A program made the position numbers and the translations under genes. The notes under the pieces were generated by a model. That model was not told the DNA's origin and ran no database searches. It saw nothing but the letters and a program-made list of their open reading frames with translations. Shown here piece by piece: positions 1 through 38,066 of a stretch of 43,688 nucleotides of DNA (positions are counted from its first letter, which is position 1; each line of letters begins with the position of its first letter). Source of the stretch: Phycisphaerae bacterium (GTDB taxonomy: Bacteria; Planctomycetota; Phycisphaerae; UBA1845; PWPN01); contig JAAYDF010000153.1 in NCBI GenBank assembly GCA_012729395.1, positions 1-43,688 on the forward strand, given 5' to 3'.

Positions 1-20
1 TCGCGCGGCTGGCGATGCGC

Positions 21-17409: not shown

Positions 17410-20331
17410 ATGCACCAATGGCTGGTTCGGCAAGGGCGGGCGCTGGCGGTCGGACTGGGGCTGACAGCTCTGGCCTTGATCGTGCACCGGTCCGGTCTGG
17501 CCGATCGCCGCGAGTGGGAAGCGTTCGACTTCCACGTCCGCCACTTCAGCCGCATCGCCGCCTCAGACCGGATCGTGCACATCGACGTCGACGACGCGGC
17601 CCTTGACCGCATCGGGAGTTGGCCCTGGCCGCGCGACGTGCAGGCCGACCTGGTACGCATCCTCGGAGAACTCGGGGCCCGGCAGGTGGTCATGGACATC
17701 GTGTGGAGCGAGCCCCGGCCCGCGGAAATACGCGATCCCAACCTGGACCGCTTCACCGACATTGAAGGTGAAACCGAGCAGCTCGGGCACGTCTCCGAGG
17801 CCAACCGCGTCTACCCCGACGACGAACTCGAAGGCGCCATCCGGGCGGCAGGCAACGTCTATCTGGCGATGTACTGCGAGTTGGAGTCGCAGGCGTCCGC
17901 GACCGACGAACTGGGCGAACGCATCTCGGCACTCCTGCTCGAACAATTCGATCTCGACGCTGCCGCCTTGGCTGAGCGTCTCGACAGCGATGCCGAGACC
18001 ATTGAGCCACGACTGGCCAAGCTCAAACGTCGAGCCGCCGAGACGCTGGTGACCGACTTCCTCGCCACCCATCCCGAAGCCTCGTTCCGCGAAGTGCACG
18101 ACGCCCTGCTCGACACCCCCTTCGAGCGACTGACGGCGGATCGCGAGGACCTCAAGGCCGCCTATCACCGCGCGCTGGGCTTGCGCGCCCTCCGGGATCG
18201 CTGCCCCCCTGTGCCGGAGAATCTTCGCGGACGACTGCCGCGCGTCGACCGCGTCGTGCCGCCGGTCTACAAGTTCACCAGTGCCGCTCACCGCGTAGGC
18301 TTCGTCACCTTCAGCCCGGACCGCGACGGGCGCACACGTCGCGTGCCGCTCCTGCTCGAATGGGACGGCCGCCTGTTGGAGCAACTGGGTTTCGCCGCCG
18401 CCCGGGACGTCCTGGGGATCGCCGTGGAGGATCTCTCGCTTGATGCGATGGGCGATCTGCACCTCGCCGCCCGGGGTGATCGGCCGGCCGCCCGCATCCA
18501 ACTCGACGAGCGAGGGCAGATCCTCATCAACTGGCATGTGCGCAAAACCGGCTGGCAGGACTGCTTCACGCACTACCCCGCCGCCCTGCTACTGCGAATC
18601 TGCGACGGCCGGCGAAACATGCGCGACAATCGCACCCGCATGCTCTGGACGATCGCCGAGGCCCTGCGGCTGGTGAAGGGTGAGCAGGGATTCGAGCTCT
18701 ACCGCCAGCAGATCAACCGCCTTCTGGAGAGTGAGCGCCGACTGCACTGGGCAACCTTGCAGGGGCGCGGCGAAGCCCCCGACGTCGTGAAGCAACGCGA
18801 GGAAACCGCTCGCCTGCGCCGCGAGATCGAACGCGACCATGCCGACACCATGGAGCTGGTCCGAGAGGAATGGCGGGCACTGCAACAGGAGCCGGACCCC
18901 AACGACCCGGCCATCGCCGACGACTATCGCACCTTCAGCAGAGCACACGACCTCATCAGCCGCGACCTCGCTGAACTCAAGGCCGCCAACGAGCGACTCG
19001 CCGATGAAGACCGCCGGTTGCTTGAGCAACTGCGCCCGCTCGTCGAAGGACGCATCTGCATGGTGGGCTACACCGCGACGGCCCTGGCCGACATGGTCAG
19101 CACGCCCCCCTACGGACGCGTGCCCGGCGTGCTCGTCCACACCAACCTGCTCAACAGCCTGCTGCAAAGCTCCTTTCGCCGCTGGGCTCTGCCCACCACG
19201 CAACTAGCCATAATCGCTTTGATCGGCGTGGGCATCACCCTGCTGACCACCACCGCCGGGCCGAAAGTCTCCTTCTCCATCGTCTTGGTGGGCAGCGTGG
19301 GCGGACTTGCCCTGAACGGGTACCTCCTCTTCGCTCGCCTGAGCTACTGGGGCGGGTTCGTGACCGCTCTCAGCCTGGCATTCACCATCTGGGCATTGAT
19401 CGTGCTGTTGCGTTACCTGACCGAAGAACGCGAAAAGCGGCGGTTCAGCCGGGCCGTTGCTCAGTACGTCTCGCCGGCCATGGCCCGACAGATCGCTGAG
19501 AGCTCCGTCCGCCTGGACCTCTCCCCGGTCGCCACCCGTGTCACCTGCTTCTTCAGCGACATCGTCCAGTTCACCCCCATGAGTGAACGGCTCGGCCCCG
19601 AGGGCACCAAGACGGTGCTTAACCCCTACCTCGAGGCCATGTCCACCGTCCTGCATCACCGCCAAGCCATGATCAACAAGTTCATGGGCGACGGCATCTT
19701 CGCCTTCTTCAATCCGCCCATCCTGCCCTGCCCGGAGCATGAGGTGGCGGCATGCGAGGCGGCTCTCGACAGCTTCGCCGCCCTCGATGAGCTCAAGGCC
19801 CGCATGGCCGGCCACCCGCTCGCCGCCGAGTTTGGCCGCCTGAACATGCGCATCGGCATGGCCTCGGGCACCGTCTTCGTCGGCGACTACGGCAGCGAGA
19901 ACAAGCTCGACTACACCTGCGTCGGCGATACCGTCAATCTCGCCGCCCGGCTCGAATCCGCCAACAAGGTGTTCGGCACCGCCATCATGCTCACCGGCCC
20001 GACGCAGGAAGTCGTCGGCGAGCGCTTCCTCTACCGCCCGCTCGGGGCCCTCCAGGTCCGCGGCCAGAGCATGGCTTTGCCGGTCTACGAACTGCTCGGC
20101 CGGCCCGGCGAGGTCTCCGACGAACGACTCCGATACAGCGACACCTTCGGTGAAGCCGTCGCCGCTTTCGTGCTCCGCGACTGGCAACACGCCACCGCCG
20201 CCTTCCAGCGTTGCCTGGCCGCCCATCCCGCCGACCCGGGCGCCCACCTGTATCTCAGAACCATCGAGCACTATCAGCTACAACCGCCGCCCGAAGACTG
20301 GAGCGGCAACCTGGAACTCACCGAAAAGTGA
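17410..20331 (+). CDS. CHASE2-sensor class III adenylate/guanylate cyclase
   Basis: A 973-residue transmembrane cyclase. One N-terminal membrane helix (about residues 11-28) is followed by a periplasmic CHASE2 domain to about residue 585, ending in the typical PGVLVHTNLLNSLLQSSF. Three closely spaced helices follow (about 592-680), then a cytoplasmic class III catalytic domain. Metal ligands are D717 (FFSDIVQFT) and D761 (MGDG); K757 and D834 (LDYTCVGD) are the adenine-selecting pair, and N843 and R847 the transition-state pair. All are present, so adenylate cyclase activity is predicted. A short TPR-like tail follows residue 900. CHASE2 is unusually long: two helical insertions (about 95-275 and 400-545) interrupt it. 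Confidence 0.93.
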   Translation: MHQWLVRQGRALAVGLGLTALALIVHRSGLADRREWEAFDFHVRHFSRIAASDRIVHIDVDDAALDRIGSWPWPRDVQADLVRILGELGARQVVMDIVWSEPRPAEIRDPNLDRFTDIEGETEQLGHVSEANRVYPDDELEGAIRAAGNVYLAMYCELESQASATDELGERISALLLEQFDLDAAALAERLDSDAETIEPRLAKLKRRAAETLVTDFLATHPEASFREVHDALLDTPFERLTADREDLKAAYHRALGLRALRDRCPPVPENLRGRLPRVDRVVPPVYKFTSAAHRVGFVTFSPDRDGRTRRVPLLLEWDGRLLEQLGFAAARDVLGIAVEDLSLDAMGDLHLAARGDRPAARIQLDERGQILINWHVRKTGWQDCFTHYPAALLLRICDGRRNMRDNRTRMLWTIAEALRLVKGEQGFELYRQQINRLLESERRLHWATLQGRGEAPDVVKQREETARLRREIERDHADTMELVREEWRALQQEPDPNDPAIADDYRTFSRAHDLISRDLAELKAANERLADEDRRLLEQLRPLVEGRICMVGYTATALADMVSTPPYGRVPGVLVHTNLLNSLLQSSFRRWALPTTQLAIIALIGVGITLLTTTAGPKVSFSIVLVGSVGGLALNGYLLFARLSYWGGFVTALSLAFTIWALIVLLRYLTEEREKRRFSRAVAQYVSPAMARQIAESSVRLDLSPVATRVTCFFSDIVQFTPMSERLGPEGTKTVLNPYLEAMSTVLHHRQAMINKFMGDGIFAFFNPPILPCPEHEVAACEAALDSFAALDELKARMAGHPLAAEFGRLNMRIGMASGTVFVGDYGSENKLDYTCVGDTVNLAARLESANKVFGTAIMLTGPTQEVVGERFLYRPLGALQVRGQSMALPVYELLGRPGEVSDERLRYSDTFGEAVAAFVLRDWQHATAAFQRCLAAHPADPGAHLYLRTIEHYQLQPPPEDWSGNLELTEK

Positions 20332-20336
20332 TAAGC

Positions 20337-20531
20337 AGGGCGTAACTCGCCATCCGCGAGCGGAATGCCCCATCGCCAAGCCCCAATGACCCATGAAGTC
20401 CGAATGACCCATGACCAACGTCCCCGCTCGGGCTTGGCCTTCTGGCTTCGGGCTTGGTCATTGATTGGTCATTGGGCCTTGGGCATTCGCCATTCTGCCA
20501 CGGGAGCCACGCGGCCAGCGAGTTGCGCCCT
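20337..20531. repeat. approximately 195-bp palindromic element, copy A
   Basis: Terminal inverted repeats AGGGCGTAACTCGC (20337-20350) and GCGAGTTGCGCCCT (20518-20531) match at 13 of 14 positions. The two halves carry related inner motifs (CCCAATGACCCATGA and CTTGGTCATTGATTGGTCATTGGG), so the whole could fold into one long imperfect hairpin. It begins six bases past the cyclase stop, between convergent genes, and may double as a bidirectional terminator. No protein is encoded. A second copy is at 32202-32402. The rest of the gap, to 20662, holds nothing recognisable. Confidence 0.8.
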
Positions 20532-20662
20532 GATCAAGAGAAGACCGACGGATCTCATGATCTCATGCGAGGTTCAGCCGCGGTATGCCTGGTCGGCCAT
20601 CGAAAGCCGATCGTCTCCGTGCGCTCCGCACCTCGCGTGGTGCCATGTTTTTGCCGCCGGGG

Positions 20663-23600
20663 TCAAGACACACTTGCGACCGGCGCTACCGCCTCTGTCT
20701 TCCTGCCAAACGCCTTCTCGATCAGCACGTAGAACAGAGGGGTGAACAGCACCACCAGGACCGTACCGGTGACCATGCCGCCCAGCACCGCCGTGCCGAT
20801 AGCGTTCATGGCTCCGGCACCCGCGCCCGTGCTAAAGGCCAACGGCAAAACCGACAGACCGGTGGTCATCGAGGTCATCATGATCGGCCGAAGCCGCAGC
20901 TTCACGGCCTGGAGAGAGGACTCGATCAGACCCGTCCCCTGGGCCACGCCGGCCATCGCGAACTGAACGATCAGAATGGCGTTCTTCGTAGCCAACCCCA
21001 GCGTATTCAACAACCCGATCTGGAAGTAGACGTCGCTCGGCAACTCTCGCCAAGATGTCGCCGCAAAACCACCAATGACGCCCAACGGCAGAATCAGCAG
21101 AACCGCGATGGGAACATCCCACTTCCCGTACAACGCCGCCAGGAAGAGAAACACGATCAGGATCGAGAACGCATAGAGCAAACCGGTCTGGGCGGCCGCC
21201 TGCCGTTCCTGGTACGAAAGCCCCGTCCAGTCATAACCGATACCCTTCGGCAGCTTCGCGGTGATTTCCTCCATGGCCCGCATGGCCTCGCCCGAACTCC
21301 TGCCCGGCTGAGGCTCGCCCCACATGTTCATCGAGGGAAAACCGTTGAAACGCTCCAGCCGCGGCGAGCCGCTCGCCCATCGCCCCGTGGCGAACGAAGC
21401 GAAGGGCACCATTTCCCCGGCCATGTTCCGCACATACAACTTCTCCAGATCCCTGGGCAGCATCCGGTGAGGAGCGTCCGCCTGAACATAAACCCGCTTG
21501 ACGCGGCCGCCCTGGATGAAATCGTTGACGTACGCGCTGCCGAAAGCCGCGGAAATGGTACGGTGGATAGAGGTAATGGCCAGCCCTTGAGCACCCGCCT
21601 TCTCCCAATCCACGTCCAGTCGGTACTCGGGCACGTCCTCCAGACCGTTGGGACGCACCTTCGTCAGCCGCTGATCCGCTGCCGCCATGCCCAAAAGTTG
21701 ATTGCGGGCCTGCATCAAAGCGCCGTGCCCCACGCCGCCGCGATCCACCAACTGGAAGTCGAATCCTATGGCGTTGCCCAGTTCGCTCACCGGGGGCGGC
21801 GCGAACGCCACCACGATCGCGTCACGGATCTTGGAGAACGCCGCCATGGCCCGACCCGCCACCGCCTTGACCCTCAGATGCGGTTGATCACGCAAATCCC
21901 AGTCTTTCAACTTGACGAACACCATGCCGTTGCTCTGTGCCTGGCCGGAAAAACCCACCCCCGCGATGGTCATGCACGATTCCACCGCTTCTTTCTCGTG
22001 CGCCATGAAGTAGCTCTGGACCTCATCAGCGACCTCCTGGGTCTGCTCCAACGTAGAACCCGTGGGCATCAGAATCTGGGCCAGCAGGATTCCCTGATCC
22101 TCGTCTGGCAGGTAACTACTGGGAATCTTTACGAATAGCCATCCCAGGCCGGCCACCAGCATGGCGTACACCGCCACAAAACGCAGCTTCCGAGTGAGCG
22201 AGTAGCCGACCAGCGTCACAAGACCATCACGGAACCGGTTGAACACGCGGTCGAACGCCAGAAAAAACGGCCGAAGAAACCAGACCGCTCCTTCTGCCGC
22301 CTCATGCCCCTTGACGATCGGCTTGAGAATCGACGCACACAACACCGGCGTCAGAATCAACGCCACCAAGACCGACAACACCATGGATGTGACCACGGTC
22401 ACTGAGAACTGGCGGTAAATGATGCCCGTAGAGCCGGAGAAAAACGCCATCGGGCCAAACAGGGCCGAAAGCACCAGGGTAAAACCGATCAAGGCGCTGG
22501 TCACCTGCTCCATCGACTTGGCGGTCGCCTCCCGAGGCGAGAGGCCCTCCTCACTCATCAATCGCTCAACGTTCTCCACCACCACGATGGTGTCGTCCAC
22601 CAGCAGGCCGATGGCAATCACCAGCGCGAACATGGTCAACATGTTGAACGAGTATCCGAACGCCCCCAGCGCCGCACACGTGCCAAGCAATACCACCGGC
22701 ACGGAGATCGTGGGGATCAGCGTGGCCCGGATATTGCCCATAAACAGCCACATCACCAGGAAGACCAGCCCAATCGCCTGCCACAAAGAGTTGACCGCCT
22801 CGAGAATGGCTACCTTGACGAACGGTGTGGTGTCGTACGGATACACCACCTTCATCCCCTGCGGGAAGTAATAACTCATTTCCTCCATCTTCGATTTGAC
22901 CGCGTTGGCCGTCTCCAGGGCGTTAGCTCCCGGCGTCTGTCGAATGGCCATGATCGCGCTGGGCTTGTTGTTGTAGCGGCCCTCGATATCGTAGGACTCA
23001 GTACCCAGTTCGGTTCGGCCCACGTCCCGGATCCGCACAATGGAGCCGTCCGGATTGGTCCGCAGTGGTATGGCGGCGAATTCCTCCGGCGTTTGAAGAA
23101 GGTTCTGAACCACGATCGTCGCGTTCAGCCGCTGGCCCTCCACTGCCGGAAGCGCGCCAAACTGGCCGGCCGAAACCTCCACGTTGTAAGCCCGCAGACC
23201 CGCAATCACATCCTCTATGGTCAGGTGATAATTGGTCAGCTCATCCGGGTTCAACCAGATACGCATGGCATACTGGGAGCCAAACACCTCGACTTCGCCG
23301 ACGCCCGGCACGCGCGACAGCACCTTCTCCAGGTTCGACTGAGCGTAGTCGCGCAGATCGTGGCCATTCATGCTCCCGTCTTCGCTAACAAGCCCGACGA
23401 ACAACAGCCAGTTCCGCGTCGATTTGCTCACCTTGACGCCCGATTGCTGCACCACCTCCGGCAAGCTGGCCATAGCAAGTTGCAGCTTGTTCTGAACCTT
23501 GGCCCAAGCCAGATCCGGATCCGTCCCCGGCTTGAAGGTCAACTCGATCCGCGACGTGCCCGAGGAATCGCTCGTGCCGGCCAGATACAGCATGTCGTCG

Positions 23601-23818
23601 AAGCCGGTCATCTTCTGCTCGATGATCTGCGTCACGCTGTTCTCGACCGTCTGGGCCGACGCTCCAGGATACTGGGATTCGATGGCAATGCCCGGAGGAG
23701 CGATCGGCGGATACTGCGCGATGGGCTGATTGTACGTGGCCAAGCCGCCCAGCAGCATGATGCAAATGGCAATAACCCAGGCAAATACCGGGTGATCTAG
23801 GAAGAATCTCGATAGCAT
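20663..23818 (-). CDS. RND multidrug efflux transporter (AcrB/HAE1 type)
   Basis: A 1051-residue inner-membrane proton/drug antiporter of the hydrophobe/amphiphile efflux family. The N-terminus MLSRFFLDHPVFAWVIAI is typical, and the ATG at 23818 places it correctly. It has the twelve-helix pattern with two large periplasmic loops. The proton-relay pair lies in GLLVDDTIVVVENVERLM, the partner Lys in LGLATKNAILIVQFA, and the Arg in LRLRPIMMTSMTTG. It lacks any sign of truncation. It follows the adaptor gene by 13 bases and is the last gene of the efflux operon. The exported substrates cannot be read from sequence. Confidence 0.95.
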   Translation of the reverse strand: MLSRFFLDHPVFAWVIAICIMLLGGLATYNQPIAQYPPIAPPGIAIESQYPGASAQTVENSVTQIIEQKMTGFDDMLYLAGTSDSSGTSRIELTFKPGTDPDLAWAKVQNKLQLAMASLPEVVQQSGVKVSKSTRNWLLFVGLVSEDGSMNGHDLRDYAQSNLEKVLSRVPGVGEVEVFGSQYAMRIWLNPDELTNYHLTIEDVIAGLRAYNVEVSAGQFGALPAVEGQRLNATIVVQNLLQTPEEFAAIPLRTNPDGSIVRIRDVGRTELGTESYDIEGRYNNKPSAIMAIRQTPGANALETANAVKSKMEEMSYYFPQGMKVVYPYDTTPFVKVAILEAVNSLWQAIGLVFLVMWLFMGNIRATLIPTISVPVVLLGTCAALGAFGYSFNMLTMFALVIAIGLLVDDTIVVVENVERLMSEEGLSPREATAKSMEQVTSALIGFTLVLSALFGPMAFFSGSTGIIYRQFSVTVVTSMVLSVLVALILTPVLCASILKPIVKGHEAAEGAVWFLRPFFLAFDRVFNRFRDGLVTLVGYSLTRKLRFVAVYAMLVAGLGWLFVKIPSSYLPDEDQGILLAQILMPTGSTLEQTQEVADEVQSYFMAHEKEAVESCMTIAGVGFSGQAQSNGMVFVKLKDWDLRDQPHLRVKAVAGRAMAAFSKIRDAIVVAFAPPPVSELGNAIGFDFQLVDRGGVGHGALMQARNQLLGMAAADQRLTKVRPNGLEDVPEYRLDVDWEKAGAQGLAITSIHRTISAAFGSAYVNDFIQGGRVKRVYVQADAPHRMLPRDLEKLYVRNMAGEMVPFASFATGRWASGSPRLERFNGFPSMNMWGEPQPGRSSGEAMRAMEEITAKLPKGIGYDWTGLSYQERQAAAQTGLLYAFSILIVFLFLAALYGKWDVPIAVLLILPLGVIGGFAATSWRELPSDVYFQIGLLNTLGLATKNAILIVQFAMAGVAQGTGLIESSLQAVKLRLRPIMMTSMTTGLSVLPLAFSTGAGAGAMNAIGTAVLGGMVTGTVLVVLFTPLFYVLIEKAFGRKTEAVAPVASVS

Positions 23819-23831
23819 GGATTTTCTCTGC

Positions 23832-25163
23832 TTACTTTGATTGCTCGGACGGCGCAACAGCTTTCTCAGCCACGGGATGGTCGTCATGCCCCGCGACGAA
23901 CTCGACAGCCTTCACGGAAACATCGGGCCTGACTTTCTGGCTGCCTTCCACAATAACCCGATCACCCTCCTCAAGGCCCGACGCCACAAGCCATCGGTTG
24001 CCGATGGCCCGATCCAGGACCAGCATCCGCTGTTGCACCTTGCCCTCGGCGTCGACAATCATGGCGATCGGATCGCCTTTCGGATTGCGTTGGACACCCT
24101 GCTGCGGGACCAAGATGGCCTGCTCGTTGACTCCCTCCGTAATCACGACTCGCACGAACATGCCCGGCAGAAGAACACTCTGCGGATTCGGAAACACCAC
24201 CCGCAGAATGACTGACCCGGTCGTCGGGTTCACCGTCACATCCTGGAATTGCAGCGTCCCTTCCGACGCATATGGCATGTCGTCTTCCAGGATGAGCTTG
24301 ACCTTGTCCTGATTGGTCCCATTCTGATTCAGACGACCGTCCGCCAAGCGACGCTGCAAACGCAGTAGTTCCGCGGTCGACTGCGGCACATCCACATAAA
24401 TGGGGTCCATTTGTTGGATCGTCGCCAAGGCCGTGGACTGGTACGCCGTCACCAACGCACCATCCGTCACGCTTGATTTGCCGATGCGACCGGAGATCGG
24501 AGCCGTCACCTGTGTATACGCAAGGTTGATCCGCGCCGTCTCCAACGCCGCCTTCGCCTGCTGAATGCTCGCCTCCGCCACCGAAATGGCCTTCCGGTCG
24601 CTCTCCAATTGAGCCTCGGCGGCACGCAACGCGGCCTCCGCGACCGCGGCTTCGGTCACCACCCGGTCACGCTCGCTTCCGGAGACCGCGTTCGCCTTGA
24701 AAGCCTCTTCAAAGCGATCACGGTTAATCCTCGCCAGCTCCAGCGTCGCCTTCTGACGGACAACCCCCGCTTCGCTGGCCACCAATGCCGCACGCGCCCG
24801 TTCCGCGCTCTCTTCCGTCACAGCCAGATTGGCCGTGGCACTATTCATCGCAGCCTCAAACGGAGCAGGATCAATCTGGTAGAGTACCTGGCCAGCCTTG
24901 ACATCAGAACCTTCCTCAAAGAGGCGTTTTTGTATCAAGCCGTTGACCTGCGGTCGGATCTCCGAAACCAGGAAGGCGGACGTGCGGCCGGGCAGTTCCG
25001 TCGTGATGATCGCCCGCTCCGCGCCCACGGTCACGACGGCCACCTCCGGCGGGCCGGCCTGCATAGGCCCGGCACCGCTCCCCGCCCTTTCGCAGCCGGT
25101 CAGCACCGCCAGCCCAAGAGTAGAAACACCAAACCACAATGCGCTACGACATAGGATCCGCAT
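23832..25163 (-). CDS. RND efflux periplasmic adaptor lipoprotein (AcrA/MexA type)
   Basis: A 443-residue membrane-fusion protein. The signal peptide ends in the lipobox LTGC (C24). The lipoyl-like half-domain is split around a long alpha-hairpin (about residues 100-210, rich in AEAALRAAEAQLES-type heptads), followed by beta-barrel and membrane-proximal domains (ITEGVNEQAILVPQQGVQR). It links the pump to the outer-membrane factor. The ATG at 25163 has GAGG six bases upstream. It sits between the outer-membrane factor and pump genes on the same strand. Confidence 0.93.
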   Translation of the reverse strand: MRILCRSALWFGVSTLGLAVLTGCERAGSGAGPMQAGPPEVAVVTVGAERAIITTELPGRTSAFLVSEIRPQVNGLIQKRLFEEGSDVKAGQVLYQIDPAPFEAAMNSATANLAVTEESAERARAALVASEAGVVRQKATLELARINRDRFEEAFKANAVSGSERDRVVTEAAVAEAALRAAEAQLESDRKAISVAEASIQQAKAALETARINLAYTQVTAPISGRIGKSSVTDGALVTAYQSTALATIQQMDPIYVDVPQSTAELLRLQRRLADGRLNQNGTNQDKVKLILEDDMPYASEGTLQFQDVTVNPTTGSVILRVVFPNPQSVLLPGMFVRVVITEGVNEQAILVPQQGVQRNPKGDPIAMIVDAEGKVQQRMLVLDRAIGNRWLVASGLEEGDRVIVEGSQKVRPDVSVKAVEFVAGHDDHPVAEKAVAPSEQSK

Positions 25164-28185: not shown

Positions 28186-28258
28186 TGACCCCAGCGGGAT
28201 TCGAACCCGCGTTGCCGGCGTGAAAAGCCGGTGTCCTAGGCCTCTAGACGATGGGGCC
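28186..28258 (-). tRNA. tRNA-Glu (anticodon TTC)
   Basis: A 73-base cloverleaf on the minus strand. The acceptor arms GGCCCCA and TGGGGTC pair (one G-T), the anticodon stem CCGGC/GCCGG closes the loop TTTTCAC with anticodon TTC, and the T-arm contains GGGTTCGAATCCC. The discriminator is A and the CCA end is not encoded. A promoter and a leader hairpin precede it. Confidence 0.96.
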
Positions 28259-31705: not shown

Positions 31706-32203
31706 ATGCGCTGCCCTTATTGCCGCGAGATCAATCAGGACAAGGTCATCGACTCCCGCCTCAGCGAGAACGGCGAGGTCATCCGCCGACGCCGCGCCTG
31801 CATCGCCTGCCATAAACGCTTCACCACCAAGGAACGCGTCGAGCACGACGTACGGCTCATGGTCATCAAACGCGACGGCAGCCGCATGCCCTACGAACGC
31901 ACCAAGGTGCTCACCAGCCTGCAGCGGGCCGCCTACAAAAGGCCCTTGGCCGACGAGGATCTCAACCGCCTGGTCGATGCCGTCGAGGACATCCTCTTCA
32001 AAAAGTACGACCGCGAGGTCAGCAGCCAGGCCATTGGCGCCCTCGTCGGCGACCAGCTGCGCAAAGTCGACCAGATCGCCTACGTCCGATTCGCCAGCGT
32101 CTACCGCCGGTTCCAGGATCTGGGCGAACTCATCGACGAAGCCCAGGAAGTCATCAAGGAGCGCAAGGCCGAACCCCCAGGCCAACGCCAACTATTTGAA
32201 TAG
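31706..32203 (+). CDS. nrdR: transcriptional repressor NrdR
   Basis: A 165-residue zinc-ribbon and ATP-cone repressor of ribonucleotide reductase genes. The N-terminal ribbon has C3, C6, C32 and C35 (MRCPYC, then CIAC) with the conserved DSR and IRRRR blocks. The ATP-cone follows from about residue 49 (MVIKRDGSRMPYERTKVL). Length is typical (150-165). No clear ribosome binding site precedes the ATG. No nrdA or nrdB is in the window. The stop codon TAG lies inside the left end of the second palindromic element. Confidence 0.95.
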   Translation: MRCPYCREINQDKVIDSRLSENGEVIRRRRACIACHKRFTTKERVEHDVRLMVIKRDGSRMPYERTKVLTSLQRAAYKRPLADEDLNRLVDAVEDILFKKYDREVSSQAIGALVGDQLRKVDQIAYVRFASVYRRFQDLGELIDEAQEVIKERKAEPPGQRQLFE

Positions 32204-32402
32204 GGCGTAATTCGCCATCCGTGCGCGAAATGACCCATGGCGAAACCCCAATGACCAATGAAGTCCGAATGACCCATGACGAACGTCCTCCGCCCGCAGT
32301 TGGCGTTCTGGCTTCGAGCTTGGTCATTGATTGGCCATCGGGCCTTGGGCATTCGCCATTTTGCACCAGGAGTCAGGCGTCCAGAGAGTTACACCTGCTT
32401 GA
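32202..32402. repeat. approximately 195-bp palindromic element, copy B
   Basis: Closely matches copy A at 20337-20531 along its length. Shared segments include GGGCGTAATTCGCCATCC (copy A has one C for T), ATGAAGTCCGAATGACCCAT and CTTGGTCATTGATTGG. The left terminal repeat is well kept and provides the last bases of nrdR, while the right end (GAGTTACACCTGCTT) has diverged. It fills most of the 329-base gap to the SGNH-hydrolase gene. Confidence 0.8.
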
Positions 32403-32532
32403 ATAGCCGCGATGGCAGGACAGGAACAGGGGAGTACTGCGGCGTTAGGTACCCAACCTGGCCAATGCGGGCCCATCAGCGTTCGCAAGACGAGCAATAC
32501 TCATGCTGACCAGCGGAAAGGTTCGACGGCGT

Positions 32533-37846: not shown

Positions 37847-37875
37847 GGGCGTAACTCGCCTGCCGCGTGCGCGAG
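37847..37875. repeat. fragment of the palindromic element
   Basis: GGGCGTAACTCGCC (37847-37860) equals the left end of copy A, and TGCCGCGTGCGCGA continues in register with copies A and B before similarity is lost. Only the left end is present. The rest of the 37776-38066 gap shows no gene. Confidence 0.55.
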
Positions 37876-38066
37876 GATAGTCACGTCAAGGAAGGCGACA
37901 TTCGCTGATCTCTAAGCCCCCACCGCTCATCCCGCCAACCTCAATCGCTTGCCACCCGAACGCGATGCTTATATCGTGAACCCTGACCCGGCGTCCGTCG
38001 ACGCGTCGTCGGCTGTGCCCGGAACATGATTCTGGTCCGCTACCGTCAGCCCGAGGTAACCGTCTG

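Follow-up and report, generated by a model that had tools for sequence, protein, structure and literature searches.

A palindromic MITE with ISKra4-type ends and a foreign core in a Phycisphaerae genome

Main finding

The palindromic element analysed here is, with a probability of roughly 93%, a non-autonomous MITE in which the ends of an ISKra4-family IS enclose a core foreign to that IS. It is ordinary in kind, a new example of a known element type, and the twist lies in this core. Two full copies (A and B) and a remnant are found in the window, by which we mean the whole stretch of 43,688 nucleotides that was analysed, contig C120 of a 5.74-Mb draft genome (G000) that is 99.55% complete. 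The features of the window are the following.

20338..20530, + strand: MITE copy A, 193 bp, with ends and body common to the family
20338..20350, + strand: left terminal inverted repeat of copy A, GGGCGTAACTCGC, equal to the end of the ISKra4-family IS
20518..20530, - strand: right terminal inverted repeat of copy A, GGGCGCAACTCGC on the - strand, from the end-motif scan and the end definition
20364..20494 (limits approximate), no strand: palindromic core of copy A, with AATGACC / GGTCATT words, without likeness to the IS and found elsewhere without the ends
20329..20337, + strand: 9-bp target left of copy A, TGATAAGCA, equal to the right copy at 6/9 positions, decayed and weak when taken alone
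20531..20539, + strand: 9-bp target right of copy A, TGATCAAGA, from flank comparison
32203..32396, + strand: MITE copy B, 194 bp, 85% identity to copy A
32194..32202, + strand: 9-bp target left of copy B, ATTTGAATA, equal to the right copy at 7/9 positions
32397..32405, + strand: 9-bp target right of copy B, GCTTGAATA, from flank comparison
37847..37876, + strand: solo left-end remnant, 30 nt, matching the family-1 consensus at 24/30 and the intact IS end at 21/30 positions

A family of about 45 places with fixed ends

The original prediction placed a non-coding palindromic element at 20337-20531, a second, nearly full copy at 32202-32402 and a fragment at 37847, and read them as mobile or amplified. 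All three are real, with limits that needed correction for the two copies: the first was drawn one base too long at each end (true extent 20338-20530) and the second runs from 32203 to 32396. The terminal 14-mers do match at 13 of 14 positions (AGGGCGTAACTCGC / AGGGCGCAACTCGC), and the inverted match of the copy A ends reaches 23 nt at 83%. The fragment is a left-end remnant, whose score against the consensus exceeds the best obtained with six shuffles of the window (18-20). Coding capacity is indeed lacking, no ORF of at least 80 aa being confined to the element, and with 13-bp inverted ends and a length under ~600 bp copy A has the size and ends of a MITE. Because the element is a palindrome, both strands of copy A fold strongly, beating 200 of 200 shuffles (z -4.36 and -4.50).

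Searching the genome with copy A gave 64 matches, which came down to 40 places once 17 weak rows (E >= 0.01) were removed and neighbouring matches merged; a search with a diverged copy added five new places. Mean pairwise identity among 23 aligned copies is 84%, the closest pair reaching 98%. Both ends could be defined in 27 of the 45 loci examined, and these 27 were used for the insertion statistics. Their ends, GGGYGYAACTCGC...GCGAGTTRCRCCC, usually lie 172-194 bp apart. The genome-wide count thus upholds the reading as mobile or amplified: the family goes far beyond the copies of the window, and its boundaries are steady.

Insertion signature and target site

Target-site duplications, which the original prediction had proposed to look for, are present. 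The 9-bp flanks match at 7 or more positions in 16/27 elements and perfectly in 7/27, while flanks swapped between copies reach that level in 1.5% of cases. Mean flank identity is 0.695 at length 9 against 0.22-0.30 at lengths 5-8 and 10-12, so that only a length of 9 works. Eleven of the 27 copies, copy A among them (6/9), are without a clear duplication. Targets are AT-rich on either side of a TSA centre, with C or G at position 5 in 23/27 left and 26/27 right flanks, and the target type of the family can be written WANTSATTW. One copy (L012, contig C214) is inserted in another repeat. Across the genome, the uninterrupted 20-mer GACCGGCGTATTCCTTGCGA of that repeat has 26 exact occurrences, or 42 when up to two mismatches are allowed, against 0 for the reversed control. 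This repeat provides an empty (paralogous) site within the same genome.

An ISKra4-family IS with matching ends

A genome scan for the end motif pointed to a broken IS on contig C70, which begins with GGGTGTAACTCGC and is the sole ISKra4 copy found in this genome. Two ORF pieces of it match the NCBIfam ISKra4 transposase model NF033572 at 79.1 and 65.5 bits (E 3.5e-22 and 4.6e-18), both below the curated cut-off of 205 bits; a Pfam search of the two pieces gave no match. Within a public genome collection, the nearest relative of the broken IS is L084 (JAKLEZ010000028.1, from a Planctomycetota MAG). This IS is intact, measures 1650 bp, encodes a 495-aa transposase scoring 297.9 bits with the same model and is flanked by a perfect 9-bp duplication, AAATCGGCT. 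Its ends, GGGTGTAACTCGCC / AGGTGTAACTCGCC, are near-identical to those of the MITE. A more distant ISKra4 relative (L086) has the ends GGGCGTAACC and the duplication TTTCCCAAT. The L084 sequence is also present in G011, which belongs to the family of the window's genome. Four partial matches accompany it there, and at least two of them, L181 and L183, have retained an end of the same kind. A transposase with matching ends, for which a search had been suggested, is therefore available, broken in the host genome and intact in L084 and G011. No solved structure of the transposase was found.

The MITE and an intact driver were not seen together in one genome. The MITE family of the window (family 1) was not found in G011, the holder of the intact IS, and the five genomes that contain the ISKra4 loci L084-L088 yielded only short weak matches to it (best E 0.007). 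Conversely, G001 (84% complete) has MITEs but yielded no ISKra4 relative.

We suppose that the IS transposase would recognize the MITE ends in trans and transfer the palindrome into a staggered cut, which would give rise to a 9-bp target duplication at WANTSATTW-type sites. Probably it was this transposase that moved the copies. Its activity would since have ceased, because the copies now show a mean difference of ~16% and no unbroken IS copy was found in the host genome.

Two cores with a shared end shell

The MITE resembles the IS over about 13-21 bp at the ends, other matches being short and weak. The core is not an internal-deletion derivative of the IS, unlike that of the classical MITE. 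Internal deletion is the origin of the classical type, and many MITEs lack it.

Allowing one mismatch, a 20-nt word of the core occurs in 3 of 294 sampled genomes of the phylum, the host genome included, with 37 occurrences in G000, 6 in G142 (same class as the window's genome) and 18 in G146 (another class). Palindromes with AATGACC/GGTCATT words and devoid of ends are found at L048-L068 (G006, G009), L187-L195 (G142, G146) and L036 and L167 (G000). Ten of 20 such palindromes examined lie within 30 bp of a gene 3′ end as called by a crude gene finder, with no control.

The ends, for their part, are associated with a second core. In G001, which belongs to another genus of the same family, 43 matches were obtained to a MITE that has the same ends around a different palindromic core, GGGGACAGGCACC...GGAGCCAGTCCCC. 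End pairs were recognized in 25 of 34 loci examined (5 of the 25 being doubtful), and duplications at 7/9 or better in 15/25 against 3% for mismatched flanks, with the same duplication length and target preference. A few elements with these ends and a core of the G001 kind exist in the host genome as well (L077, L080).

G001, L119-L148 and L170-L176: loci of the second MITE family, same ISKra4 ends
G000, L077 (C170), L080 (C369) and L078 (C227): loci of the second MITE family, same ISKra4 ends

The G001 family is an independent replicate of a MITE with ISKra4 ends. The first ~30 bp on the left, as far as AAATG, are common to both families, as are, on the right, CATTTTGCCC and approximately the last 20 bp. 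The shell thus comprises ~30 bp on the left and ~40-50 bp on the right, and meets the core at AAATG...CATTTT in both families; one end shell would seem to have carried two cores.

How shell and core came together can be read in two ways. The free-standing cores could be decayed MITEs deprived of their ends, with no capture of an older repeat. End loss does occur, since in the host genome 13 of 34 core clusters keep one recognizable end and 5 keep none. However, neither end was detected (at up to 3 mismatches, a level reached by chance in 7% per side) in any of 13 clusters in G006/G009 or of 7 in G142/G146 (another order and another class), and the G001 elements join the same ends to another core. 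We thus hold decay to be a rather unlikely source of the free cores, and capture of a free palindrome to be the better, though unproven, reading: most likely, a palindromic repeat that already existed acquired these ends on both sides and then spread with them. The broader proposal, on which we would put slightly less than even odds, is that the ISKra4 end shell acts as an exchangeable carrier, which took up different pre-existing long palindromes in separate Planctomycetota genera and spread them as MITEs; the cores would then represent an undescribed class of long-hairpin repeats, patchy across the phylum and often beside gene ends.

Stop codons, terminators and REP-type mobility

The element had also been considered as a possible bidirectional terminator, lying within ten bases of a stop codon in both full copies. 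The latter observation is exact. The first bases of the 9-bp target of copy A (20329-20337) are the TGA that ends ORF 17410-20331, and copy B starts inside the TAG stop (32201-32203) of ORF 31706-32203, the call preferred by the gene finder, an overlapping ORF in another frame ending at 32210. For the whole family, the 27 copies were sorted into 4 unscorable, 4 within called coding sequence (some calls being doubtful) and 19 intergenic. With a home-made and crude gene finder, 6 of these 19 lie at most 10 bp from a called stop where 2.7 were expected (P=0.018).

A role chiefly as bidirectional transcription terminator or mRNA 3′-end hairpin, selected beside genes, would accommodate this modest excess as well as the strong hairpin on both strands of copy A and its position between convergent genes. 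Yet many other copies are distant from stops or have divergent genes on their two sides, and a scan of copy A revealed no terminator-like hairpin with T-run within it, the one detected at 20628-20643 being outside. Consensus folding of 23 copies displayed two-sided compensatory change in 2 of 31 predicted pairs, and with so little covariation a function as RNA structure was set aside. Moreover, a TSA-centred target, which includes TGA, combined with selection against coding hits, would suffice for the stop-codon excess, and the duplications indicate spread by transposition, whatever other role the element may have. We regard a terminator as a quite improbable main function. Between the two identities initially offered, copy number, fixed ends, duplications and a transposase with matching ends speak for the MITE, and the terminator is not sustained.

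Mobilization of the core as a REP-type repeat by RAYT (Y1) transposases is extremely improbable; the possibility was raised by the 11 Y1_Tnp matches in the host genome and by the intergenic, palindromic nature of the core. Of 42 Y1_Tnp matches, in 5 of 6 genomes, 30 loci were fetched and none had core words or an end; the RAYT link was therefore dismissed, and the MITE with ISKra4 ends is retained.

As to the genes that converge on copy A, 17410-20331 (+ strand) encodes a CHASE2 / adenylate-guanylate cyclase protein and 20663-23887 (- strand) an AcrB-type efflux pump. At the gathering threshold, Rfam yields a single match in the window, a tRNA gene at 28186-28258 on the - strand.

Relation to known elements

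ISKra4 corresponds to the p-MULT 4 group of Mutator-like DDE transposases, a superfamily for which PMC3942029 gives duplications of 8 or 9 bp. The same paper reports that certain ISKra4 members choose sites 13-17 bp away from a promoter. The MITE shares its ends with the ISKra4 copies of this taxonomic family, and its 9-bp duplication falls within the published 8 or 9 bp. Unlike ISKra4, it has no transposase gene, its core is foreign and it displays no promoter-spacing pattern. At 94 junctions, no promoter matching a sigma-70-type consensus, the only type searched, was found 13-17 bp away, the single full promoter-like site being 0-4 bp from its junction; promoter targeting as in some ISKra4 members was thus rejected.

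RUP, NEMIS and ERIC, named in PMC3733652, are bacterial MITEs with which the element has in common a size of 70-300 bp, terminal inverted repeats, lack of coding capacity and many copies. It differs from them in its ISKra4-type ends and in an interior that is a separate palindromic repeat rather than an IS remnant. REP and BIME repeats, for which PMC3733652 distinguishes GTAG and CGTC super-families, resemble the core alone, likewise an intergenic palindrome, repeated in several Planctomycetota; the present element is longer, carried by IS ends with target duplications, and was not found beside RAYT genes at the 30 loci fetched. Full-text searches of one open library showed no ISKra4-derived MITE and no paper with the letters of the core sequence; most subscription journals lie outside that library, so that this is weak evidence of absence.

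For one MITE family of the Planctomycetota, these results identify the driver family, the target rule and an empty site. They help annotation, as such copies can occupy stop codons and mimic regulatory hairpins. MITE interiors unrelated to the parent IS are a recurring puzzle in MITE biology, and core exchange, if true, would be one route to them.

Insertions show no preference for GTAG-REP-like words: among 94 flanks, each of 80 bp, such words turn up in 4, belonging to 3 elements, while 3.6% of stretches from the background have them. The repeat family built around GACCGGCGTATTCCTTGCGA, with arms like GTAGCGGTCGCCCCCCGTGGCGACCGG, presumably resembles a GTAG-tagged REP doublet. It occupies 42 places in the host genome (e.g. 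L228-L237) and is also found in the flanks of L012, L014, L018 and L024.
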